Source: Melastoma dodecandrum
Lineage: Eukaryota > Streptophyta > Magnoliopsida > Myrtales > Melastomataceae
DNA length: 64,000 bases
Assembly: GCA_029817715.1 (NCBI GenBank)
Contig: JARUPY010000537.1
Span: 2,914,001 to 2,978,000, forward strand
Direction of reading: 5' to 3'
The first letter of the stretch is position 1. Each line of letters starts with the position of its first letter. This document shows positions 4,251-29,130 of this stretch, piece by piece. The position numbers were made by a program, and so were the translations under genes. The notes beneath the pieces are model-generated. The model ran no database searches and was not told where the DNA came from. It was given only the letters and a program-made list of their open reading frames with translations.

Positions 4251-5600
4251 TCCTCGTATGGTGCTGAAAGAATACGAACGACAAACTCAAAGCAAAATCA
4301 ACCGAATGTTGTTGTCTGACCACTATTCTACATTTATACGCTATTATAGTAACTAACAATGTCGATCTTCTATTTGTAACTATTCAAATGAATTTAAATT
4401 AGGCTAGTAGTTTAATGGACATTGTACTGCAATAGATGGAAAGTATCTTGACATAGAACAATGAATGTAATATGTTAGTGCAACAATCATATTGATCACG
4501 AAAAATTGTTTCTAAATTGCGACAACATTACGTCTATCATGTTACTACATGGAATCAATTAAAGATTGATTGATTTCATCCCCAGCAAGTAACAAATGGT
4601 TAGAAGGTTCTGTAGACGTGTAACCTTCTGTAATCTGGAGAAGAATGTTAGCAACATGAACTTAACAAAGCTTTTATAACCACTAAATAAACACAGAGCG
4701 TTTAGGTTCAAAGAGTATTCAACTTCAATGAGTTCTCTCTTCCTCAATAAAATCTCTCCCCCTTTTCATCACATCAAGAAGAAAGGTAGAAGACTTTTGG
4801 GAGTACATATTGTAGATATTGATTTTATTTAGCAATATCAAACAACAATTGTGCATAGCGCTTGCATAAGAGAGATAGTAGAAGGTGTCATAGCACTTAC
4901 AAACATCAAAACCATACCACCAAATCATAAAAGGCATAGTATCTAGCTCAAAATACAATAGTTTTAATATCGTTTAGAAAGAGATACAACTATTGCAGCA
5001 GCTTCTCCAACTATTACAACTAGTTTTAATAGGATCACTCTACCTTTATGATAGGACCGTCAAAACACATTCTTGCAGCAGCTTCTCCAATCGATTGTTG
5101 GTGCGAATGAGGCCAGTCATCTGGTTCTGCATCAAACGGAACTATTTAGAGAGTATATCAACTTGGCTTTAAAGCTCAGTCATGCGTGACAACATTGTGT
5201 GGAAGGAAGCTCCTTCGCTAGCAAGGGTAGATGCCTTAATAGAAGGCTCTTGATAGGTTGAGGTTGCAACAACAGAAGCATTGACAAGAGGAGGAGCCTT
5301 CGCTGCTGCAGTACCTTTGCTTCTAGTCCTAGTAGTCAAGACCCTCTATTAATAGTTTATGGTCGAAACTTTTGTTAATGATATACTCTATTCTTTCTTG
5401 GAAAGTTACTGTACATATTTTGCATAGATATATTTTAATCAACTGAAAACTACACTAAAGGAAACTTCCATTAGTTTACAACGTTTCCAAAAATCACATT
5501 TTTGGAATATTTTAGTATGATTTAATTTGAATTCCGAAATTATCACAATGTAAATATATTCTTAACTAAATCATTGACAATAAAATAAGAGTTGAATAGT
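4251..5600. repeat. Spacer shared with 59.4-60.5 kb
   Basis: No gene. The sequence from about 4380 to 5600 runs parallel to 59410-60560, including AGTTTAATGGACATTGTACTGC, the GTAACCTTC-GTAATC region and the AGCTCAGTCATG block near 5172. Pieces of it recur at 28661-28840 and, inverted, at 48440-48680. It is part of a dispersed duplication module that links TBC fragments to resistance-gene scraps. Confidence 0.7.
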
Positions 5601-10051: not shown

Positions 10052-10948
10052 CTATGCTTCCATAGCCACGCTGTGGAGGACGACCGTCTCTACCGTCATC
10101 CCCAGCCCGAACCCAAATAGCACCCCCCACTCCAGCCCTTCCCCAGTCGTCCCCCTCTTCCCCTTGATCGACCTCCTCCTCATCTCGTCCATTATGAACA
10201 GCACGCACGCGCTCGACATGTTCCCGTACTCGCTCAGCACGTGTCTCGTTGCCAGTAGCTTCTCGGGATTCAGCCCCAGCTTCTGCTCCACTTGGTTCAG
10301 GATTGCAACCCCACCATGGTGGGCTATCCAGAACAGGGAGTTCCAGTCCGACATCCCCAGTGGCTCGAACGCCTCGACCAGGCACTTCTCTATGTTCTCC
10401 GAGATGAGCCCAGGCACGTCCTTGAGGAGGTGTAAGGTAAGCCCCACCTCCCTCAGGTGCCCGTTGATGGCCCCGTCACTCTCGGGGAGGATGGTCTGTT
10501 CGGCGAAGACCAGCTTGAACATTGGCTTCTCAATCCCTGGGATGGGGTCCGCTCCCACAATGACGGCTGTCGCTCCGTCTCCGAACAGGGCGTTACCCAT
10601 GAGGTTGTCTAGTTGAGTGTCATTGGGGCCATGAAAGGTGAATGTAGTGATCTCAGAGCAGACAACGAGGACACGGGATCCAGGACCTCGCCGAAGGACG
10701 GTGCCCCCGGCGAAGAGCCTTGCATGTACATCATGAGGCGCTTCACGGAGGGACGTAGACCGAGGAGCTTGGTGAGTTGGTAGTCCGCACAGAGAATGTC
10801 GACGCCGCTGGTTGTGCAGAAGATGAGGTGGGTGATCTTGGACTTGAGCTGTCCCCACTCCTTGATGGTTTGGACAGCAGCCTCCTTCCCGAGCTTAGGG
10901 ATCTCGACGACAACCATGTCCTGCCTCTCGTCAATGGAAGGTGCCTTG
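10052..10948 (-). pseudogene. Chalcone synthase family pseudogene A, main part of exon 2
   Basis: Type III polyketide synthase fragments on the minus strand. The 5' portion reads [14 protein letters not shown] and [20 protein letters not shown]. The 3' portion includes the His region WIAHHGG (normally HPGG), the Asn region [14 protein letters not shown], and GFGLG where the family has GFGPG. It ends LHSVAMEA. A one-base deletion near 10717 removes the codon of the catalytic cysteine (family motif QGCFAGG). About 27 bases just downstream are also missing. The remaining exon-2 sequence, [10 protein letters not shown], lies at 22487-22570 beyond the retrotransposon. No exon 1 is recognisable. 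The enzyme normally condenses p-coumaroyl-CoA with malonyl-CoA; this copy cannot. Confidence 0.92.
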
Positions 10949-13160
10949 TGTTGGATCGTTCAGGAACACTAAGAGGGGGGTGAATTAGTGTTTATAACTT
11001 TTTCGCCCTTTCTTAGTGTAAGCGGAAGCGTACTGTATCACAACAGAACGTTTCTCAGAATGAGAACAGCTTTGCTGTAACCGTTACGACTTAATCGTTT
11101 GATTCTCGTACGAGTGTTTTCGCGATCGTAAGGGACACAGTAGTTTATAGTGGTTCGGCCTTAATCGACCTACGTCCACTTTCCACCGTAGAGGTGATTC
11201 CACTATTTGAAAATAATGGGTGCAAAGAGCCCTTGCACTAGGCGTAAGTTTTTCTCACAAAGTGAGATTTAGAATCCCGTACAACAGATGATTACTCCTG
11301 GCAACGGTCAGCTCCTCACACAGTGGACGTCTGCTCATATCCAGCAAGATGATGCTTAGCCTCAGCAGTTGGTAGCTCAATGGATTCCACACAGCTCGTT
11401 GTCGCTTAGGATAATCCTGACTTATCAAAGAACACAAACAACGTTATGTTAGTATATAATCCTCACAGATGATTCCTTACAGTGAAGAACGACTTCTCGG
11501 AGAGCAGCCCGTTTCTGATTCACAGCAAAGGAATGCTTCGGCACTTGTTTGCTCAGAAGATGATTTCCACAAAGATTCCGTCCCTTCTCAGAATGATCCT
11601 GTCTATAAGAGCAAGAGAGACAACCACAAAGATAATCACACAGATCGCCACACAGATCACAAAGAGAAGAGCCACAAAGAAAACCACAAAGACCACTTAG
11701 AAGGTATCTGTCCTACACTCAGTTCGGATGTGCACGGTTACCACAGCCTTAACTCACTACACTGCACACCCAGTGCCTAGGGTGGAATTTTCCGATCCGT
11801 TGGCTTCCACGCAACCTGCTTTACTAACCCTCTGTATCAGGCGTTCAAGACTTCTGCACAGCACCCCTGTGCTCGGGAGGAACTCTTTCCACTCCGGCGG
11901 CGTTCTCACCTCCTGCTCTACCCTGCAGGCACGAGACTTCTGGCGCGCACCCGCAAGTGCTTGTCTAACTGCTCAAACTCCGTAGGCTCGAGACTTCCCT
12001 GCGAAAAGACACGACAAGAACGGCTTCTTGCCGATGGGTTATCAACCGATTACTGAATTTAGAGCAGGTATTCACATAGCTTCCCTCAGACGATTCGCCG
12101 GCTGCTCGTTGAACGCACCGAGGACACCTAGTCCCTCTCACGACGATCAAGGGATCTGAACTCAACCCCTCGACACCCTCGCACGCAGTTTGCGACCAAT
12201 AAGAACCAGGAGACACTTAGCACCTTCCGCTCTCTGTCGACCACTCAGACCACTCAGCCACTCAGCCCACTTAGAAAAACGTTCGAAAACGTCCAGTGAT
12301 TATGTGAGGGTCGTCTGGTATATAAAGAGACGAAACAAATAATAGATTTCCTAAAAACGAATAATTTGTTTCCAAAAATCAGACTACAGCAAGCTGGAAT
12401 CATGGAACAACAACTATATGCTCAACGGTCACAATGACCAAGAGGGAAGGAAATCATTAATGATATTCCACATCCGTATAATCTGATCTAAACTTTATCA
12501 TATTAAATAATGATTATTAAAATCATTAGACACGTAAATATGGAACAATTAAATCCCTTAATGATTGAGATAGGATAGGAAATTATGTTTCCTTTTCCAA
12601 AATCTTTCTCAAATGTCATTGTTTGATTCTCACACGTGATTATCATAATCCGATAATATATTTAATCATTAAAGATAGTTTAATTGCAATAAGCAAATTT
12701 GGAATAACATTCATTCGTCAACGCAATAACGCAGAATAGTTTCGCTATAATGCAGCAAGATATTTCTCAAGTGTAACGACACACTTCCCAGGTTGCAGCG
12801 TAACAGTATTGAAGAATATCAAAGAAATATTTTGTTTCCAAAATTAAACTTGGAAAGCAAATATCGTAATATTTAGATGCCTAAACATTATAAATGAGAT
12901 CAATGAGCCAGATTAAATGAATTTGGACACTCAGATGAATATTCTGAATTAGTCCAAAATAAATCGAGGATATTAAAGAATATGTTTCCATATTTTTAAT
13001 ATTTATGCGCAATGTCACAGTAACACTCTACTGTAACGCAGCAGTCTGTGACTGTTACTTGCTGTGGTTCAGCAACACAGTTCTCAAGCTCATCACTAAG
13101 AATAAGCGAAGTGCTACAGCAACTATCTTCTCAAGCTCATCATCAAAACCAGGACTAACA
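10949..13160 (-). repeat. 3' LTR of the Sirevirus (2212 bp)
   Basis: Paired with 20263-22486; it is 12 bp shorter, which is explained by one missing repeat unit at 11620-11700. A TATA-like motif, read on the minus strand as TTTATATACC, lies near 12319-12328 and may mark the LTR promoter. Open frames inside the LTR, such as 11469-11780 on the plus strand, follow the tandem repeat and are not genes. Confidence 0.93.
11620..11700. repeat. Imperfect CACAAAGA-type tandem repeat inside the LTR
   Basis: Units based on CACAAAGA/CACACAGATC repeat about seven times. The partner array in the other LTR is at 20935-21027 and has one extra 12-bp unit. Confidence 0.75.
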
Positions 13161-13300
13161 TTCTCCCCCTTTTTGGTGATGACAAAACACGAAGCGCATA
13201 GGGAAAAGATGATAGAGCTAGAAACACAAACTCAACTCCCCCTGAAATTAAGCAAACTCCCCCTGAGAGTAAGCAACACATTTCTCCCCCTTTTTGTCAT
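13161..13300 (-). promoter_or_regulatory. Multiple polypurine tracts next to the 3' LTR
   Basis: Directly against the LTR, 13161-13175 reads on the minus strand as CCAAAAAGGGGGAGAA, the classic plus-strand priming site. A second copy, CAAAAAGGGGGAGAAA, lies at 13282-13297. Two shorter CAGGGGGAG tracts lie near 13235-13244 and 13255-13265. Repeated polypurine tracts upstream of the 3' LTR are described for Sireviruses. Confidence 0.85.
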
Positions 13301-13498: not shown

Positions 13499-15226
13499 TC
13501 AATCCTCGTGCGGGAGTTCCTTAACAACAGCCATTATCTCCTCAGTCAGTTTCTCCAGCCTAGTCAACCTTTCCCCAAAGCCGTCCATCCTCTCCAGGAG
13601 ACAACGCCTGGTAAAGTTGATCTCATTCCAAATTGTGGCCATGAGCTTGGAGTAAGAGACATCAGCCTGTGCACCAGTAGTGGCCTTCTCGTATTTAACA
13701 TACCTCTGCTTTTCAGCAGGAGCTGCTTTACCGCGAACAGAAACAATGATCTCTCGCTTTGAAGGCTTCTTAACGAAAGAGCCATCAACAAACTGGTAGC
13801 CCATGCTTTCAACGGAGGCAGCTCCAATAACCTGAGTTGTCCAGGTGTCCATTTTGTTCAGAGGAGTAGCAACAAGATCATAATGCTTCAGGAGAGCTGT
13901 GATCACATTCGTGAACGGAAGTCCCCTATTCTCATCCTTAATGCACGAAGCCATATGGCTGAAGATGATACTTCCCGGATTTCCAGGAATGCCCTTCTTT
14001 AGATGGACCAGCAAGTTCCAATCACGAGGCATAACAGAATCAACACTCCCCATCCTTGGTGCCAAACAAGACATCACCACTTTGTGCAACATTCTGTTGC
14101 TGAAGCTCAAAGAGGTGTTCTGTAGATAGCCAGAGGGTCTGATAGGGACTCCGTCATTGATGAGCTGATAGGCTTCCAACTTGCCTTCATTGATCACCCT
14201 CAGATTGTTGACAAGATTTGCATTAAAAATGCGGCATATGTCAAAGACAGAGTAAACAAGCATTTTTCCATCAACGATGGCCCTAATGAACTTGATATTC
14301 GAATCCTCCTTGTAAAAAGTCAGATTCTCATAGAATTGTTTCACTTTGGAGATAGACCCTATCTCATTGAACTCACAAAAGGTTTTCCAACTAAGCTGAT
14401 CAAACAGGTCAGCAATGGTCACCTGATGAGCAGTAAACCAATCAAAGTCTACCCTCTTACAAGCAGTAACATTCCTTGTTTCCAAATTTCTATTTGGCAT
14501 CAAGTCATCAGCAAGAATGCGATTCAGTTCAGCCATGGAGACATATTGATCAATCTCAGGCAGGAAGACATTAGAATCTGTAGCGAGCTTTTGCTTTTTA
14601 GATCTAGAAGGACCAGATTTTGGAGTACCTGATAAGGAGCGCTTTCCTCTGGTGCGAGAAGCAACATCGGGAGCAGAAGAGCGTGCTTTCTCTGGGAAAT
14701 GGACATCAATCACTTCAATCACATCCCCAGCATTCTTAGAGAGATCCTTCTCTTCAGGCAACTCTGTCTCCTCATCCTGAGACATTTCTTTGTTGCTCGA
14801 GATTTGATCTTCCTCAGAGATAGTATCCACCTTAGTAGGTGCGGAGTCCTCTTTTTTAGGAGTATCTTGGGTTTCCTCCAGAAGGTCACCCGATTTTTCA
14901 ACATCAGGGAGAGTTTCCTCATCCACCGATTTTTCAGACTTGTCATGCACAACAGCATCGGCCTTGGCCGGAGAGATTTTGTCAGTGGAACTGACCTTCA
15001 CGCTAACGGAGGGCTCCTTGGAAACTTTGACAGGAGTTGTCTTAGCCTTCCCAGCGGTGCCGACCTCAGTAGGTGTCGGAGCAACCACCGATTGAGCGGG
15101 TGTCTCCCCCTCAGAAACAGGGGGTTGTTCCTCAGAGCGAGAAACCTTTGATGTTGTGGCCGCAGCCTTGGACCGTTTCTTGGGGGTTGCCTTCCCCTTG
15201 GCGGACATTGCCGATTTTGGTGCCAT
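13499..15226 (-). CDS. Sirevirus third ORF, 575 aa, resembling 'putative plant transposon protein' domain
   Basis: An uninterrupted 575-codon ORF between pol and the 3' LTR, same strand as gag-pol. The start is AACCATGGC, a strong plant initiation context. Residues 1-215 are low-complexity, rich in K, S, P, E and T, with a basic nuclear-signal-like cluster PSRSKKQKLA near residue 210. From about 220 to 500 it is globular: YVSMAELNRIL, FDWFTAHQVTIADLF, a VFDICRIFNANLV stretch, and MPRDWNLLVHLKKGIPGN. The C-terminus (ERLTRLEKLTEEIMAVVKEL) looks like a short coiled coil. The globular part recalls the plant retroelement-associated family annotated as Transposase_32 / putative plant transposon protein; I place it from memory. 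Some Sireviruses carry an envelope-like ORF here, but I see no signal peptide or membrane segment. Function unknown. Confidence 0.8.
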   Translation of the reverse strand: MAPKSAMSAKGKATPKKRSKAAATTSKVSRSEEQPPVSEGETPAQSVVAPTPTEVGTAGKAKTTPVKVSKEPSVSVKVSSTDKISPAKADAVVHDKSEKSVDEETLPDVEKSGDLLEETQDTPKKEDSAPTKVDTISEEDQISSNKEMSQDEETELPEEKDLSKNAGDVIEVIDVHFPEKARSSAPDVASRTRGKRSLSGTPKSGPSRSKKQKLATDSNVFLPEIDQYVSMAELNRILADDLMPNRNLETRNVTACKRVDFDWFTAHQVTIADLFDQLSWKTFCEFNEIGSISKVKQFYENLTFYKEDSNIKFIRAIVDGKMLVYSVFDICRIFNANLVNNLRVINEGKLEAYQLINDGVPIRPSGYLQNTSLSFSNRMLHKVVMSCLAPRMGSVDSVMPRDWNLLVHLKKGIPGNPGSIIFSHMASCIKDENRGLPFTNVITALLKHYDLVATPLNKMDTWTTQVIGAASVESMGYQFVDGSFVKKPSKREIIVSVRGKAAPAEKQRYVKYEKATTGAQADVSYSKLMATIWNEINFTRRCLLERMDGFGERLTRLEKLTEEIMAVVKELPHED

Positions 15227-15464
15227 GGTTGATGGGAGTCGAGAGATTTTTAGGGTTTTGAGAGAAGAATGGGTTTTGAGAGAAAATGGGTAAGAATGAG
15301 GATGTTTCGATTTGTTGTTTAAAATGAAAAGAGCGGTTGATGTATTTGGAATTTTTTTTTAAATTTTAGAAAGTGGAGAACGTGGAGGAGATAGGATTTA
15401 AATCACCCATATTTTGGCAACAAAAAATTTTCTACCAAGAGAGAAGATATTCTTACGTTTTATC

Positions 15465-18400
15465 TTATGAGGGAGGATTACAAATCCCTAACTCATTTCG
15501 TAGATAGTTAAACCTCTCCTTATCAAGTGGTTTAGTAAATATGTCAGCAAGCTGTTGCTCAGTATTAATGTACTGAATATCAACATTGCCGTTTTGCACG
15601 TTATCACGAAGAAAATGATGTCTCAACTCAATATGCTTAGATCTTGAGTGATAAACAGGATTTCGTGATAGATTAATTGCACTTGTGTTATCACACATTA
15701 TCGGAATACTACCAAAATGAAGATCGTAATCTTCAAGTTGTTGCCGCATCCAAAGCAACTGGGCACAGCAACTAGCTGCTGCGACATATTCTGCCTCTGC
15801 TGTAGATAAAGCAACCGATGTCTGCTTTTTAGAGAACCAGGAAATCAACATATTTCCTAGTAATTGGCAAGTACCAGATGTGCTTTTTCTATCAATGCGA
15901 CATCCAGCGTAGTCGGCATCTGAATATCCTATAAGATTCAGCAATGATCCTCTGGGATACCATAAACCTAAGCTGACAGTTCCTGCGAGGTATCGAAAGA
16001 TCCTCTTAACTACAGCAAGATGTGACTCTTTTGGAGCTGACTGATATCTAGCGCATAAGCATACGCTAAACATGATATCAGGTCTCGAAGCAGTAAAATA
16101 GAGTAATGATCCTATCATGCTCCTATATGATTTGGAATCTACTTCCTTTCCATCCTCATCTTTCTCAATTTTGGTATTACTACCAATCGGAGTTGACAGA
16201 GGTTTAGCATTCTCAAGATTAAATTTCTTGAGCAACTGTTTGATGTATTTTTCTTGATGGATAAAAATTTCATCTTTGGTTTGTTTGATTTGAAGTCCAA
16301 GAAAGAACGTTAGTTCTCCCATGAGACTCATTTCAAATTCTCCTTTCATTAGATCAGAGAATTCGGTACATAATTTTTCATTAGTTGAACCAAATATAAT
16401 GTCATCGACATATATTTGAGCAACTAAAAGATCAGCATCCCGTTTCTTAAGAAACAAGGTTGTATATATTTTTCCACGCTTATATCCTTTCTCAATGAGA
16501 AAAGAACTATGTTTTTCGTATCATGCTCTTGGTGCTTGCTTAAGCCCATACAAGGCTTTCGAAAGCTTATAAACATGATTACGATACTTTGGGTCTGTGA
16601 ATCCAGGAGGTTGTTCAACAAACACTTCTTCTTTTAGATCACCATTAAGGAATGCACTTTTCACATCCATTAGAAATAATTTAAAGTCATTATAGCAAGC
16701 ATACGCTAAGAGTAGTCGTATTGCCTCAAGACGTGCTATAGGAGCAAACGTCTCATCATAATCAATACCCTCCTCTTGAGAGTAACCTTTTGCTACAAGT
16801 CTAGCTTTATTCCTTACAACATTTCCAGACTCATCAACTTTATTTCGATAAACCATTTTGTTCCAATAATGGAACGATCATTGGGTCTAGGTACTAAACT
16901 CCAAACTTTGTTTCTCTCAAATTGGTTCAATTCCTCTTGCATTGCAAGAATCCAATTTGGGACATCAAGCGCATCATCAATGCCTTGAGGTTCATCTTGA
17001 GAGATAAAAGCAGAGTGTTCACAGTACAGACTTGCTGTATGTCGGGTTCGCACTCATGTGTGCAATGATCTTATTACTTGGTTAATAGGATGCCTTTTCT
17101 TATATAAAGAAGGAACACGATCCTCTATTTGTATATCCTGGAAGTCACCAGAAGCATTTTCAGTAAGTGCAGTAGGCACTTACTGTACATCTGCTGCAGT
17201 GTTTCCGTTCGGATTAGTTTCAGCAATCGTTTGCTGTGATGTTTCATTTGATACTGTTGTTGAGGATTGTGCTGCCGCATCAACAGCAACTTCCTCCTGT
17301 GTCTAAGAATCATCAACCTTAACATTGATGGACTCTTCAACAGTTAGAGTTCTTTTATTAAAAACTCTATATGCTTTGCTCGTTAGGGAGTATCCTAAGA
17401 ATATACCCTCATCAGATCGAGCATCAAACTTTCCGATACCATCTTTGATGGGTCTCAAGATATAGCACTTACTTCCAAATGGATGAAAGTATGAGATATT
17501 AGGCTTTCTGCCTTTGTATAACTCATAAGGAGTTTTACCTAATAAATGCCTCAACTGAATACGATTTGAGATGTAGCATGCTGTACTTACAGTTTCAGCC
17601 CAAAGATATTTAGCAACCTCACTTTCTAGCAACATGGTTCTCGTCATGTCTTGTAAGGTTCGATTCTTTCGCTCTACAACTCCATTTTGCTGTGGAGTGT
17701 CTGGAGCAGAGAAATTATGGTTAATACCATATTCTTCACAAAATGAAGTAAAGTCATGGTTTTCAAATTCGGTACCATGTTCCGTCCTTATGCTTCGTAG
17801 AGAAACACCTTTCACATTTTGAAGTTGTTTGACTAAAGTTTCAAAGATTGCAAACGCATCACTTTTGTGAGCTAAGAATTTAACCCAAGTGAATCTGGAA
17901 AAGTCATCTACCACAACTAGTCCATAACGTTTACCTCCAAGACTTTGAGTTCTTGTTGGACCAAATAAGTCCATATGAAGTAATTCAAGCGGAGTCTTGC
18001 TTGAAATCATATTCTTGCTTTTAAAAGATACCTTTGTTTGTTTGCCAATAGCACAAGCATTACATATCTTGTCATTGTCAAACTTGATTTTAGATAATCC
18101 CTTAATAGCATCTTTTCTGGCTAGCTTGGACAGCAAGTCATAGTTTGCGTCTCCCAACCTTCAGTGCCATAGAGTAGCTTCGTCCTTAATGGACATGAGA
18201 CAATTTTCTCCAGCAGAGATGTTCTTAAAGGACAGGATATAGATGTTTTTCTTGCGTTTACCAATGAAACACGTAACATCATCCCGTGAAATAGTACATG
18301 TTTTCTCATTGAAGGCAACATGGTAGCCCTTATCACACAATTGACTAATACTAATCAAATTGTGTTGAAGTCCTTTGACATAAAGAACTCCTTCAATGGT

Positions 18401-18604
18401 GAGGGAGTCAGAACAGCAAATGGTTCTTGTTCCTTTAACCATCTCTTTACCATTATCACCAAAAGTGACAGCACCACCATCCGGAAAAACCAGTGTGGAG
18501 AATAAGGAGACATCTCCTGACATGTGCCTCGAACAGCCACTGTCTAAGTACCATACATGGTCCTTAGCGATGGACTTGAAGCATCCCTGAAATAGAGAAA
18601 TAAC
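15465..18604 (-). pseudogene. Sirevirus pol: protease, integrase, reverse transcriptase, RNase H (disrupted)
   Basis: In frame with gag across its TAA. Protease: WYLDSGCSRHM at about 18520-18550. Integrase: zinc-finger region around ATLWH, first catalytic Asp in LLHMDLFGP, last Glu in QQNGVVERKN. The second catalytic Asp is replaced by Glu (RTEHGTEF, codon 17780-17782), and the second zinc-finger His appears lost (LGDANY). [30 protein letters not shown] and YVDDIIFGS. RNase H: YSDADYAGC, STAEAEYVAA, MCDNTSAINLS and KHIELRHHF. Damage: TGA at 18161-18163; TAG, TAA and TGA at 17303, 17180 and 17054 in the integrase-RT linker; a one-base frameshift near 16858; TGA for Trp in QAPRAWYEK at 16521-16523. 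It cannot make a complete polyprotein. Confidence 0.93.
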
Positions 18605-20128
18605 TTAAGTAAGTCGTTCCTTCCATTTGACAATAGAGCCATCAACTTTTGAAGAAATGCCACGCATATCATTTCGCCGCACATGGCAATTTTTAATGAA
18701 ATGATCTGGCCTTCTACAGTAGTAGCAAAGTCTAGGTAGCCTTTGAATAAAATAAGGAGACTCGCCATTCCTAACATGAGGAGGAACATATTTCCCGTGA
18801 TGTGAATGTTTCTCATTTCCAGAAGCATGCATCTCATGCATACATAAATCATTTTTGTTATTCACAGCATCAAGTTGCTGCTGCAATTCCTCAATCTTTG
18901 ATTTGGATTCAGAAAGTTTCTTTACCGCCTTCTTAGCCTTTGCTGATAACTCTTCCTTAAGAGAAGCGTTCTCAGCATTCAAGAATTTATTCTCCTTCTT
19001 AAGGGCTTTATTGTTTGCGGATAAAGACTCAATTTTATCATAGAGTTCTGAGAAAAGATTCTTAATATCTTCAGCAGATAGATCAGAAGGTGAGAAAGAT
19101 TGTACCTTCTTAGTTTCAGCATCAGTTTGTGCCATATAGCAGATGTTTGTTGTTTCGTCATCCTGATCTGATTCCTCATCACTATCACTCCATGATGTCA
19201 TCATGGCAATTTTCTTATATTTTGAAGGTTTGCCCTTCTCATTCAAAAGAGGCCAATCTGGTCGCATATGACCAGGTTTGTTGCACTCATAGCATACACC
19301 ACCTTTACTTTGGTGTGGTTTAATATTCTTCTTTTTAATATCTCGCTTTCCCTTAAAGCGATTTTTGCGAATATACCTTTTGAATTTCCTTGCCATCAAG
19401 GAGACTTCATCCTCAGATGAAGATGAAGATTCATCCTCATATTCATCGGACATTTCGACATTTCCCTTAAATGCAACAGCATTGGATTTCTTTTCTTCAG
19501 CAAACTTGTTCTCATTCTCATAAGCGACAAGAGAACCAAGTAGTTGTTGAAGACTTAAGCTCGTTAAGTCCTTTGCTTCTTCGATTGCCGTTTTCTTGGC
19601 TTCCCAAGTTTTAGGCAAAGAGCGAAGTATCTTTCTGACCAACTCAGAATTAGAAATAGTTTTGCCAAGTGATTCCATGGCATTAGTGATTTCGGTGAGT
19701 CTATCAAACATTTGATTTATTGACTCATCCTTTTTCATCTTGAATGCTTCGTATTGAGTTACTAATGCATTCACTTTAGATTCCTTGACTTGTTTTGTTC
19801 CATCATAGATCAAAGCAAGTCTATCCCACATTTCTTTCGCCGTCTTACAAGTAGAGACGCGATTGAATTCATTTCCAGCAAGAGCGCACACTAAATAGTG
19901 CCTTGCTTTAGTATTGAGAGAGATAGTTCTCTTTCTTTCATTTTCATGCCGAATGTCGTTCGGATTAGGTGGAGGAACCGTAAGGTCTCCTTCCATAATA
20001 ATATGCCAGCAATCGGCTTCTTTTGCTCCAATGAACAACTTCATTCTCATTTTCCAATATGAGAAGTGTTGTCCTGCAAAGAGCGGTGGACGTTCGGTCG
20101 AATGACCATCAGTCAAGAGCATCGACAT
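18605..20128 (-). CDS. Sirevirus gag, 507 aa
   Basis: Capsid/nucleocapsid protein that packages element RNA. It begins about 120 bp after the PBS. Residues 60-210 form the UBN2-type gag domain (TAKEMWDRLALIYDGT, MFDRLTEITNAM, LRSLPKTWEAKKTAI). An acidic-serine tract (DEYEDESSSSSEDE) follows. The first zinc knuckle near residue 280 reads CYECNKPGHMRPDW: the fourth ligand Cys is now Trp. The second, near residue 466, CYYCRRPDHFIKNC, has all four ligands. Between them lies a long Lys/Glu/Leu-rich coiled coil. The frame ends at TAA (18605-18607) and continues in the same frame into protease. SIRE1-type elements also separate gag and pol by a stop thought to be read through, so this TAA may be native. 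Confidence 0.9.
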   Translation of the reverse strand: MSMLLTDGHSTERPPLFAGQHFSYWKMRMKLFIGAKEADCWHIIMEGDLTVPPPNPNDIRHENERKRTISLNTKARHYLVCALAGNEFNRVSTCKTAKEMWDRLALIYDGTKQVKESKVNALVTQYEAFKMKKDESINQMFDRLTEITNAMESLGKTISNSELVRKILRSLPKTWEAKKTAIEEAKDLTSLSLQQLLGSLVAYENENKFAEEKKSNAVAFKGNVEMSDEYEDESSSSSEDEVSLMARKFKRYIRKNRFKGKRDIKKKNIKPHQSKGGVCYECNKPGHMRPDWPLLNEKGKPSKYKKIAMMTSWSDSDEESDQDDETTNICYMAQTDAETKKVQSFSPSDLSAEDIKNLFSELYDKIESLSANNKALKKENKFLNAENASLKEELSAKAKKAVKKLSESKSKIEELQQQLDAVNNKNDLCMHEMHASGNEKHSHHGKYVPPHVRNGESPYFIQRLPRLCYYCRRPDHFIKNCHVRRNDMRGISSKVDGSIVKWKERLT

Positions 20129-20248: not shown

Positions 20249-20260
20249 GCTCTGATACCA
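20249..20260 (-). other. Primer binding site for initiator tRNA-Met
   Basis: Reads TGGTATCAGAGC on the minus strand, two bases inside the 5' LTR end. This is the standard copia primer site complementary to the 3' end of initiator tRNA-Met; it is not a tRNA gene. Confidence 0.95.
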
Positions 20261-20262
20261 AT

Positions 20263-22486
20263 TGTTGGATCATTCAGGAACACTAAGAGGGGGGTGAATT
20301 AGTGTTTATAACTTTTTCGTCCATTCTCAGTGTAAGCGGAAGCGTACTGTATCACAGCAGAACGTTTCTCAGAATGAGAACAGCTTTGCTGTAACCGTTA
20401 CGACATAATCGTTTGATTCTCGTACGAGTGTTTTCGCGATCGTAAGGGACACAGTAGTTTATAGTGATTCGGCCTTAATCGACTTACGTCCACTTTCCAC
20501 CGTAGAGGTGATTCCACTATTTGAAAATAATGGGTGCAAAGAGCCCTTGCACTAGGCGTAAGTTTTTCTCACAAAGTGAGATTTAGAATCCCGTACAACA
20601 GATGATCACTCTTGGCAACGGTCAGCTCCTCACACAGTGGACGTCTGCTCGTATCCAGCAAGATGATGCTTAGCCTCAGCAGTTGGTAGCTCAATGGATT
20701 CCACACAGCTCGTTGTCGCTTAGCATAATCCTGACTTATCAAAGAACGCAAACAACGTTATGTTAGTATATAATCCTCACAGATGATTCCTTACAGTGAA
20801 GAACGACTTCTCGGAGAGCAGCCCGTTTCTGATTCACAGCAAAGGAATCCTTCGGCACTTGTTTGCTTAGAAGAGGATTTCCATAAAGATTCCGTCCCTT
20901 CTCAGAATGATCCTGTCTATAACAGCAAGAGAGACAACCACAAAGATAATCACACAGATCGCCACACAGATCACAAAGAGAAAAACCACAAAGAGAGCCA
21001 CAAAGAAAACCACAAAGACCACTTAGAAGGTATCCGTCCTACACTCAGTTCGGACGTGCATGGTTACCACAGCCGTGACTCACTGCACTGCACACCCAGT
21101 GCCTAGGGTGGAATTTTCTGATCCGTTGGCTTCCACGCAACCTGCTTTACTAACTCTCTGTATCAGGCGTTCAAGACTTCTGCACAGCACCACTGTGCTC
21201 GGGAGGAACTCTTTCCACTCCGGCGGCGTTCCCACCTCCTGCTCTACCCTGCAGGCACGAGACTTCTGGCGCGCACCCGCAAGTGCGTGTCTAACTGCTC
21301 AAACTCCGTAGGCTCAAGACTTCCCTGCGAAAAGACACGACAAGAACGGCTTCTTGCCGATGGGTCAACAACCGGTTACTGAATTCAGAGCAGGTATTCA
21401 CTTAGCTTCCCTCAGACGATTCGCCGGCTGCTCGTTGAACGCACCGAGGACACCTAGTCCCTCTCACGACGATCAAGGAATCTGAACTCAGCCCCTCGAC
21501 ACCCTCGCACGTAGTTTGCGAGCAATAAGAACCCGGAGACACTTAGCACCTTCCGCTCTGCGTCGACCATTCAGACCACTCAGCCACTCAGCCTACTTAG
21601 AAAAACGTTCGAAAACGTCCAGTGATTATGTGAGGGTCGTTTGGTATATAAAGAGACGAAACAAATAATAAATTTCCTAAAAACGAATAATTTGTTTACA
21701 AAAATCATACTACAGCAAGCTGGAATCGTGGAACAGCAACTATATGCTCAACGGTCACAATGACCAAGAGGGAAGGAAATCATTAATGATATTCCACATC
21801 CGTATAATCTGATATAAACTTTATCAGATTAAATAATGATTATTAAAATCATTAGACACGTAAACATGGAACAATTAAATCCCTTAATGATTGAGATAGG
21901 ATAGGAAATTGTGTTTCCTTTTCCAAAATCTTTCTCAAATGTTATTGTTTGATTCTCACACGTGATTATCATAATCCGATAATATATTTAATCATTAAAG
22001 ATAATTTAATTGCAATAAGCAAATTTGGAATAACATTCCTCCGTCAGCGCAATAACGCAGAATAGTTTCGCTGTAATGCAGCAACATATTTCTCAAGTGT
22101 AACGACACACTTTCCAGGTTGCGGCGTAACATTACTGCAGAATATCAAAGAAATATTTTGTTTCCAAAATTAAACTTGGAAAGCTAATCTCGTAATATTT
22201 AGATGCCTAAACATTATAAATGAGATCAATGAGCCAGATTAAATGAACTTGGACACTCAGATGAATATTTTGAATTAGTCCAAAATAAATCGAGGATATT
22301 AAAGAATATGTTTCCATATTTTTAATATTTATGCGCAATGTCACAGTAACACTCTACTGTAACGCAGCAGTCTGTAACTGTTACTTGCTGTGGTTCAGCA
22401 ACATAGCTCTCAAGCTCATCACTAAGAATAAGCGAAGTGTTACAGCAACTATCTTCTCAAGCTCATCATCAAAACCAGGACTAACA
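20263..22486 (-). repeat. 5' LTR of the Sirevirus (2224 bp)
   Basis: Direct repeat of 10949-13160. The matching TATA-like motif is near 21650-21660. Differences are scattered substitutions plus one 12-bp unit in the CACAAAGA array. Confidence 0.93.
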
Positions 22487-22570
22487 CCATGTACTCACAG
22501 ATGTTGGGGTTCTCCTTGAGGATCTCCTCCGTCAAGTACATATACCTCTTCTTGATCATCGACTTCTCGC
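22487..22570 (-). pseudogene. Chalcone synthase pseudogene A, start of exon 2
   Basis: Read on the minus strand: [20 protein letters not shown] then PNICEYM, the standard start of chalcone synthase exon 2. It continues at 10948 on the other side of the retrotransposon ([11 protein letters not shown] across the CCATG target duplication). A purine-rich acceptor-like AG lies at the exon edge near 22571. Exon 1 is not visible to the right. Confidence 0.9.
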
Positions 22571-26923: not shown

Positions 26924-28660
26924 TCATCTAATTTCAATTAGTGGGATGAGTCGGAGGTGGGAATGCCAATATTCCCCTTCCACCTTCCTGCATTTCTCCA
27001 TCAACAGCGGACAACAAAAAATGTCGAGGTATTCCAGGGAGTCAGGGAGTCCGTCCTCCGGCAACCACCTCATCCTCTTACAATCAATAATTTTCAGAGA
27101 TTGAAGGGAGGTGAGGTGGTGTCTGAGTCCCCCACCCACCCTCTCCAACTTCTCCATTCCTCCAATACTCAATTTATATAGTGATGAAGGGAGGAGACGA
27201 CTCCAGTCTGAATCTGGAGGAGGAGGAAACACTTTCATCTCATCCATCCATTCCATCCTTCCGTGAATGGTCAATTCTCGTAACGCGGTGAGATCCCTCA
27301 GCCCCCACTCCCCAATTGATTGATTCAGCTTTCGGCATTCCCAAATCACAAGCGATTGCAGATACGGAGGCAATCCTCCTCTAGGTAGCCTTGTGATGCC
27401 TTCACAGTATTGAATAGATAGTTCCTTGAGAAAGGTGAGGCGATGCATGTCTTGAGGCAAATAATTCACATTTGGACAACTGTTAAGCAGAAAACTGGAG
27501 AGGTTGCAGGGCAGATCAGGGAAGCTCGTGATGCCTTGGTAGTCATGAATAAACAGTTCCTTGAGGGATGAGAGGCGATGCATGCCTTGAGGCAAATTAT
27601 TTACATTTGGACAGTTGTTAAGCCAAAAACTGCACAGGTTGCAAGGCAGATCAAGGAAGCTCGTGATGCCTTGGCAGTTCCTAATAAATAGTTTCTTGAG
27701 GGAGATGAGGCGATGCATGTCTTGAGGCAATGACTTCACTTTTGGACAGTTGTCAAGCTCAAAAAGGGACAGGTTGCAGGGGAGTGTAGGGAATATGTCC
27801 AATTCTGGGCAATTTCGGAGAAAAAGGTCGGAGAGGGCGGACATGTGTTGCAAGCTGTCTGTCAAAGTCGTGAGGCTTGTGCAATTCCTAATGTTCAATT
27901 CTCGCAGAGACCGAGAGACGAGACTATCTTCAGGAGCTATATCCTTTATCGACACGAGTCCCTAGAGATCATCTAGAGTAAGCTCCTCGAGTGAATCCGA
28001 AAGTTTAAACAGAGACTGCGGCAGGCTCTGACAATTTTTAAGACTAAGTTTTCTCAACGAAACAGGCAGTCCCTCGCTTGGGAAGGAAGATAGCATCTCG
28101 CAATAGACAATTCTCATCTCTTCCATCTTGGTCATGGATGTAAGGCCAGCCAGACAATTCAACAATCCCCCATCGCAACCACTAATACAAATCTCGACCA
28201 GAGATGGAAGGCTAAGTCTGCACCCTCCTTTTAGTTTGGTACAATTCACCACATGCAATTGGCGGAGACAGGGGAACGGCCGGTCATTCTCGTTTTCTCC
28301 ATGGGACAACCACTTCTCCCAAGATATCATATCTACAAAACTCAAACTCCTCAAACTTCTCGACCGACTTCTTTACCTACAACAAAGTCGGATAGTATTT
28401 CGAGATTGGTCAGATCACCAATACGTGGAGGCATCTCCAACAAATTATTTGTGCCTGTTATGTCGAGGTGGAGAAGTTCGGTCAGCTTGTGGATGTTCTC
28501 AGGCAACTCCGTGAGCTTACGACACTCGAAGTAGTAGAGATTGCAACTCGACTAAGTCACATATTGACTCTGGTAGCACTTGGATTGTTGTGTGAGAAAG
28601 GTCGATGCAACGTAAAAGCTTCAACTCTCCAATTCGGTTGGGCAGGTCGCTGACTAGCAA
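26924..28660 (-). pseudogene. LRR pseudogene A (C-terminal part of a CNL resistance gene)
   Basis: Only the LRR half of a CC-NB-ARC-LRR receptor. Repeats follow the pattern LPQDMHRL-SLKEL-I, with PDLPCNLSSF stretches and the terminal LEYLDIFCCPLLMEKC-WHSHLRLIP. TAG at 27962-27964 replaces the CAG present in copy D (LQGLVSIKD), splitting an otherwise single frame from 26924 to 28354. Upstream of about 28350 an internal deletion fuses the LRR with an earlier LRR segment (28350-28660) matching 41750-42055 of CNL C. At 28661 the gene is cut off by the dispersed module. CC and NB-ARC domains are absent. Confidence 0.88.
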
Positions 28661-29130
28661 CTTGGCGTTAAAGCTCAGTCATGCATGACAACAATGTGTG
28701 GGAGGAAGCTCCTTCTCTAGCAAGGGTAGATGCCTTAATAGAAGGCTCTTGATAGGTTGAGGTTGCAGCAACAGAAGCATTGGCAAGAGGAGGAGCCTTT
28801 GCTGCTGCTGCACATTTGCTTCTAGTCCTGGTAGTCCGTTTCTTCTCTTTGGAAGTTATTCACAATGGCCAAAGTCCAAAATGATGGATATGATGCATCC
28901 CTCACTCTTAATATGTTTTTGCAGATATTAGATCGATTTCACGCGGCCGACCACTTCCGTTTAAAGTCAGCCCAATTGAATGTCTAAAGTCAAATGATGG
29001 TAGGATTTTTATGATTTGTATGAAATTATTTCACTTTAGATATTAGTCCGATTTTATTTAAATTTTTTTCATTTAGATATAAACTCACACCCTTATCAGC
29101 TAGACGAGCTTAGCTCTTCTTTCTTTTTTA
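28661..29130. repeat. Partial copy of the dispersed spacer module
   Basis: Matches 5160-5330 / 60088-60240 (GTTAAAGCTCAGTCATG, GAAGGCTCTTGATAGG) and then 5757-5950 / 60795-60975 (CAATTGAATGTCTAAA, CTCACACCCTTATCAG). It abuts the broken 5' edge of LRR pseudogene A directly. Confidence 0.75.

Follow-up and report, generated by a model that had tools for sequence, protein, structure and literature searches.

A selected third gene in a Sirevirus family of Melastoma dodecandrum shares its Transposase_32 domain with a Ty3/gypsy 3' gene

Introduction

Among SIRE elements, 74% carry a sense open reading frame (ORF) between pol and the 3' long terminal repeat (LTR), and these frames fall into 19 groups with little or no mutual similarity (PMC6317226). 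The same large survey left undecided whether such extra 3' genes form a single family that evolves fast or were acquired many times. Transposase_32, a plant transposon-associated domain, has previously been reported in an ORF of a sunflower Athila element (PMC11728184). Here, we analyze ORF3, the third gene of a Ty1/copia element of Sirevirus type that lies on the minus strand of a 64-kb window of Melastoma dodecandrum (contig JARUPY010000537.1, positions 2,914,001 to 2,978,000; "window" denotes this whole stretch of 64,000 nucleotides). ORF3 belongs to a known class of genes and diverges fast; it was under selection at depth, its domain links two superfamilies, and it is a candidate DNA-binding and possibly anti-silencing protein.

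ORF3 resembles the 3' ORFs of SIRE/Sirevirus elements (eORF-3'F) in its sense orientation, its position between pol and the 3' LTR, its fast divergence and its coiled coil. Unlike these, it has no membrane-like segment but an identifiable Transposase_32 domain. Furthermore, it is set off from pol by a spacer of 238 nt, while a stop codon alone separates the two in SIRE1 (PMC2829016). A preliminary description of the window had called ORF3 a candidate for an undescribed function, which is too strong a label given the SIRE 3' ORFs and the sunflower Athila domain already on record. What this single Sirevirus gene adds is the combination of selection, the lack of a membrane-like part, and a domain that also occurs in a Ty3/gypsy element of this plant's genome.

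Results

The 575-codon frame is present exactly where it had been placed (13499-15226), on the minus strand, with the start context AACCATGGC; the plus-strand translation of this interval contains 6 stops. Its sole Pfam match is PF20167 (Transposase_32) with 47.8 bits (curated cut-off 45), covering profile positions 3-173 of 177, and the C-terminal part likewise matches only this domain at E up to 10. The Pfam search thereby confirms the suspected resemblance to a "putative plant transposon protein" domain. The cut-off is also passed by L029, P0001, L030 and L034. This genome holds at least 150 PF20167 matches, which at 127-151 bits all outscore ORF3 among the matches listed, while no match was obtained in 14 control genomes.

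For one of the high-scoring elements (L033) we examined the context. It encodes reverse transcriptase (RT), RNase H and integrase, i.e., the Ty3/gypsy order, followed by a sense 359-codon ORF with PF20167. We consider it Athila-type because of its gene order, because no chromodomain was matched, and in view of the sunflower element (PMC11728184); the label is not tree-based. A profile-profile comparison of the Sirevirus ORF3 set with the Ty3-type set yields a probability of 91.7 (E 7.6e-7, 172 columns). By this profile match, the ORF3 domain is homologous to the domain of the Athila-type sense 3' ORF, so that one domain connects the "env-like" gene of a Sirevirus with the 3' gene of a Ty3/gypsy element across superfamilies. 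In the open-licence literature searched, we found no link between PF20167 and Sireviruses.

Beside carrying the same domain in the same place (as seen in the one element examined), the Athila-type 3' ORFs resemble ORF3 by a MAPK start in 4 of 5 cases. Both ORF sets show basic starts, coiled-coil-like ends and no clear membrane segments; the end is weaker in L035 and L038, whose scores are reached by 14 and 16 of 300 shuffles. On the other hand, the Athila-type ORFs are shorter (359-388 codons), lack the long acidic linker and score higher with PF20167 (131-147 bits for three scored ORFs vs 48-52 for Sirevirus ORFs). The database relatives of ORF3 are four Melastoma candidum proteins, one of which (P0001) is nearly identical to genome copy L030 in the alignment. 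A profile search for deeper homologues returned only these four, and the same kind of search with a Ty3-type query gave seven proteins.

With regard to structure, the modelled core of a Transposase_32 relative gives a tentative match to the fold of VANC21, a DNA-bound protein. In a weak structure model, helix 311-356 corresponds to the coiled-coil-like C-terminal end of ORF3. Foldseek searches against the PDB (both models) and against viral models (one model) gave no match at E up to 0.001.

ORF3 is laid out as a basic tail, a fast-evolving acidic linker, a cluster resembling a nuclear localization signal (NLS), Transposase_32 and the coiled-coil-like end. The basic N-terminus, the NLS-like cluster and the terminal coiled coil had all been noticed before and are borne out by composition and shuffle score. 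Kyte-Doolittle hydropathy, the only measure used, reveals no signal-peptide-like or membrane-like stretch (maximal 19-residue mean 1.25; at most -0.86 in the first 40 residues), in agreement with the earlier claim that both a signal peptide and a membrane helix are missing. Judged by its sequence, the product looks soluble.

Between the window copy and copy L016, dN/dS of ORF3 is 0.35 (0.24-0.54), with 0.21 (0.12-0.37) for the C-terminal 360 codons and 0.61 (0.35-1.21) for the N-terminal 215 codons; gag and pol show 0.25 (0.14-0.44) and 0.14 (0.09-0.20). Relating the window copy to 19 other copies gives similar values, i.e., 0.36 for ORF3, 0.24 and 0.59 for its C- and N-terminal parts, 0.26 for gag and 0.15 for pol. 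The comparison among copies, for which the preliminary description had called, thus places the whole ORF3 and its C-terminal part below 1, while the N-terminal interval includes 1. Selection acted on ORF3 while the family multiplied. Measured against the value near 1 that the preliminary description had named as refuting, the reading as a functional gene stands, though with weak recent constraint.

The openness of the frame in the window copy, in contrast, is expected by chance. It had been argued that an intact ORF3 in an otherwise dead element indicates a kept function. Damage to gag-pol is indeed found. Compared with another copy, pol carries 5 stops and 1 frameshift, and the window copy alone of 20 has both the integrase catalytic aspartate and one gag zinc-knuckle cysteine altered. 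However, none of the 511 codons of gag is a stop, and one further stop turned out to be lineage-wide (see below). Using a mutation model from single-copy changes, scaled to the LTR age (Kimura two-parameter distance, K2P, 0.0343), simulation predicts 1.12 stops for ORF3, 1.34 for gag and 2.74 for pol. The probability of no stop in ORF3 is 0.31, or about 0.22 with indels, and that of at least 5 stops in pol 0.14.

We also counted stops in other copies, by hand from the matches listed; these lists are ranked by score and hence censored, frameshifts were not counted, and the codon totals for RT and family B are approximate. The family-A ORF3 set (51 of 79 rows with at least 83% identity and at least 500 codons, dropping shorter rows and three family-B rows of 56-57%) contains 23 stops in 28,981 codons, family-B ORF3 44 in ~42,500, and RT of both families 48 in ~39,700 (121 rows). 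The 20 fetched copies are the best ORF3 matches and thus biased, such that their 3 stops in 11,500 codons were not used. A special retention of ORF3 in the window copy is rejected by the simulation as well as by the ORF3:RT stop rates. Stop rates after insertion fit neutral decay, without any sign that copies were kept for ORF3. Since openness is chance-like, the stop rate as expected, gag equally open and one stop shared by the lineage, the argument that a frame left open in a dead element has kept its function has to be corrected. It is copy number and selection that lift ORF3 beyond chance as a family trait, though not its openness. We are confident that ORF3 belongs, as third gene, to a multi-copy Sirevirus family and is no relic peculiar to the window copy.

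Finally, we compared families A and B, where family B is represented by one copy (L034, L041) for gag, pol and ORF3. The ORF3 proteins are 55% identical overall. Identity reaches 72-80% over the first 25 residues and 71% in Transposase_32 and drops to 27-32% in the acidic linker. For pol we observe 94% identity and a dS of 0.37, and for gag a pS of 0.23 (434 codons). Fast evolution of ORF3 alone is rejected as the cause of its divergence, because pS is 0.52-0.86 in every segment of it, i.e., synonymous sites are near saturation too. Given the lower values of gag-pol, ORF3 and gag-pol differ in history; recombination probably decoupled them, either by a swap of ORF3 or by homogenization of gag-pol. 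Divergence of pol is itself patchy (pS 0.07-0.69, L034/L041 vs L016), and the patchy synonymous divergence of gag-pol suggests recombination between Sirevirus families. The decoupling bears on the published question of very fast evolution vs independent acquisition (PMC6317226).

Discussion

What could the protein do? The tentative fold match of the modelled relative favours DNA targeting. Under a VANC-like mechanism, the ORF3 protein would enter the nucleus and multimerise through its coiled coil, and Transposase_32 would bind short motifs that are repeated in the LTRs of its own family, with the TCTNNGTGG arrays (a motif chosen after the fact) as best candidate. The bound protein would then loosen silencing at the LTRs, much like the VANC proteins of VANDAL transposons, and would thereby work in trans, on every copy with the motif. 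ORF3 is similar to VANC21 and VANC of VANDAL in being element-encoded and fast evolving, in the short motif that forms tandem arrays within the noncoding DNA of the element, and possibly in fold, going by the modelled core of a Transposase_32 relative. It differs in that VANDAL is a Mu-like DNA transposon, whereas the host of ORF3 is a retrotransposon. Furthermore, DUF1985 was not detected by sequence here; it had no match in this genome either, but the control genomes were equally silent, so this is not evidence of absence.

Some values weigh against strong selection on ORF3. Over all 190 copy pairs, dN/dS rises to 0.47 for ORF3 and 0.74 for its N-terminal part. Variants found in at least two copies comprise 27 nonsynonymous and 20 synonymous changes, hardly below the ratio of single-copy variants (118:73), while pol shows 12:55 vs 165:112; single-copy changes include the window copy's own lineage. 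Stops are split between ORF3 and RT as expected from the stop-proneness of the sequences (P = 1.0 for 23 vs 48, and 0.25). As to the motif, one array is common to both families, whose ORF3 are very different. The weak constraint among shared variants and this common array lower our confidence. A selected third gene encoding a DNA-binding anti-silencing helper is still our best overall explanation, a tentative one with somewhat less than an even chance of being right; the VANC-like mechanism in particular, which is drawn by analogy, deserves at most the same confidence.

ORF3 might instead be a nuclear accessory factor unrelated to silencing, which serves import, targets integration to chromatin or aids assembly as a chaperone of capsid or integrase, with its coiled coil binding gag or integrase. 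The basic tail, the NLS-like cluster, the coiled-coil-like end, the lack of a membrane-like segment and the dN/dS values would all suit such a protein, the sunflower Athila relative is predicted to be nuclear (PMC11728184), and a chaperone role has been proposed earlier (PMC7264820). This reading alone leaves the tentative match to a DNA-bound fold unexplained; we regard it as possible but rather unlikely. That ORF3 suppresses RNA silencing, or is some other accessory protein that binds RNA, is improbable: fast evolution fits an arms race, but no RNA-binding domain was matched in the Pfam search, and the DRBM-like comparison that might be invoked concerns a different additional ORF, of Tekay type (PMC11728184).

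That ORF3 is a passenger without function, open by chance, would agree with the chance-expected openness of the window copy (0.22-0.31), the RT-like gain of stops and the little constrained shared variants. We consider it very improbable given that the dN/dS intervals of ORF3 and its C-terminal part lie below 1 and that 31/51 long family-A and 49/78 family-B rows are stop-free (hand count among the matches listed). Least credible is an envelope-like or movement protein for leaving the cell, for which the location before the 3' LTR, the coiled coil and the transmembrane and coiled-coil domains described for Sirevirus env-like genes (PMC3414828) speak, but which the basic N-terminus, the simple hydropathy of ORF3 (no signal-peptide-like start or strongly hydrophobic segment) and that of five Ty3-type relatives examined (also below 1.6; highest 1.56, L037) contradict.

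Returning to the anti-silencing helper, the relative's predicted fold may point toward a known DNA-bound anti-silencing protein, which reduces the question to one of LTR-array binding. A wider and rather doubtful extension is that Sirevirus and Athila "env-like" ORFs are, in part or more, one gene family, that its Transposase_32 has a VANC fold, and that sequence-specific anti-silencing factors circulate among Mu-like DNA transposons and Ty3/gypsy and Ty1/copia retrotransposons, acting on tandem arrays in the LTR of the element that encodes them. The array common to both families makes this extension less probable, too.

Element structure and neighbouring sequence

Coordinates are collected in Table 1. 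The order of gag with CCHC, Pol_BBD, integrase and RT is that of copia (integrase before RT). The LTRs are 96.1% identical (74 mismatches in 2212 sites, a single 12-bp gap, K2P 0.0343), corresponding to an age of ~1.3-2.5 million years at substitution rates of 1.3e-8 to 7e-9 per site. The primer binding site TGGTATCAGAGC is presumably of tRNA-Met type. Gene order, primer binding site and the polypurine boxes, multiple copies of which are a Sirevirus hallmark (PMC2829016), all agree with the Sirevirus assignment given before. We found no CGG-N0-4-CCG in the 5' LTR; as CGG-CCG boxes are absent from some Sireviruses (PMC2829016), this is compatible with membership. The TATA-like and CT-rich/telobox-like stretches of the pol-ORF3 spacer form a putative promoter, judged by sequence, and their conservation is not evident in family B.

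Table 1. Features of the element and of ORF3 within the window
Feature	Position	Strand	Remark
5' LTR	20263..22486	minus	
5' LTR array 2	20938..21027	minus	TCTNNGTGG motif, 12-bp tandem units
Primer binding site TGGTATCAGAGC	20249..20260	minus	after 5' LTR
gag	18605..20128	minus	open; one zinc-knuckle cysteine altered; lineage-wide TAA at end
pol	15465..18604	minus	Pol_BBD, integrase, RT domains matched; 5 stops, 1 frameshift
pol-ORF3 spacer	15227..15464	minus	238 nt; TATA-like and CT-rich/telobox-like stretches
ORF3	13499..15226	minus	575 codons; Transposase_32-bearing accessory (env-like / eORF-3'F) gene
Basic N-terminus (aa 1-30)	15137..15226	minus	9 K/R, 0 D/E
Bipartite-NLS-like basic cluster (aa 191-215)	14582..14656	minus	by composition; putative NLS
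Transposase_32, PF20167 (aa 278-448)	13883..14395	minus	best conserved long stretch of ORF3
C-terminal coiled-coil-like helix (aa 531-575)	13502..13636	minus	score reached by 3/300 shuffles
Four polypurine-tract boxes	13161..13290	minus	GGGGGAG type, clustered before 3' LTR
3' LTR	10949..13160	minus	
3' LTR array 1	12241..12275	minus	TCTNNGTGG-like 9-bp units; 5' LTR counterpart ~21565-21593
3' LTR array 2	11567..11701	minus	TCTNNGTGG

At the gag/pol junction, both genes are in the same frame and divided by an in-frame TAA (18605-18607). Of the 20 copies fetched, 18 retain this site, and the TAA is found in all 18, as well as in the family-B copy L034; it is thus not damage of the window copy. 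As the junction lies in a region of low between-family synonymous divergence (pS 0.07), long-term conservation of the TAA is unproven. The pol behind it shows dN/dS of 0.14 and 0.085 and could be expressed via readthrough or splicing; that gag/pol junctions can be unusual is a known trait of Sireviruses (PMC2829016). A pyrimidine-rich stretch after the TAA ends in CAG/G, resembling a 3' splice site. In L015 and L027, a common 519-bp deletion removes the end of gag together with the TAA and joins gag and pol in one frame. A stem-loop at the TAA was considered and rejected (z -1.29; 17/200 shuffles fold equally well).

The element is inserted in a coding exon of a same-strand chalcone-synthase gene (flanks 10052-10948 and 22487-22560), whose protein is interrupted after ...NPNICEYM; the element edges show a near-duplication of 5 bp (CCTTG/CCATG). 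Since the open stretches of chalcone synthase are in different frames, the gene looks broken apart from the insertion too. Elsewhere in the window, a 135-nt unit occurs three times in tandem at 27383-27787 (units 2 and 3 match unit 1 with 81% and 76% identity), and a direct repeat of 182 nt with 93% identity is found at 5156-5337 and 28655-28836, i.e., spaced by 23.5 kb.
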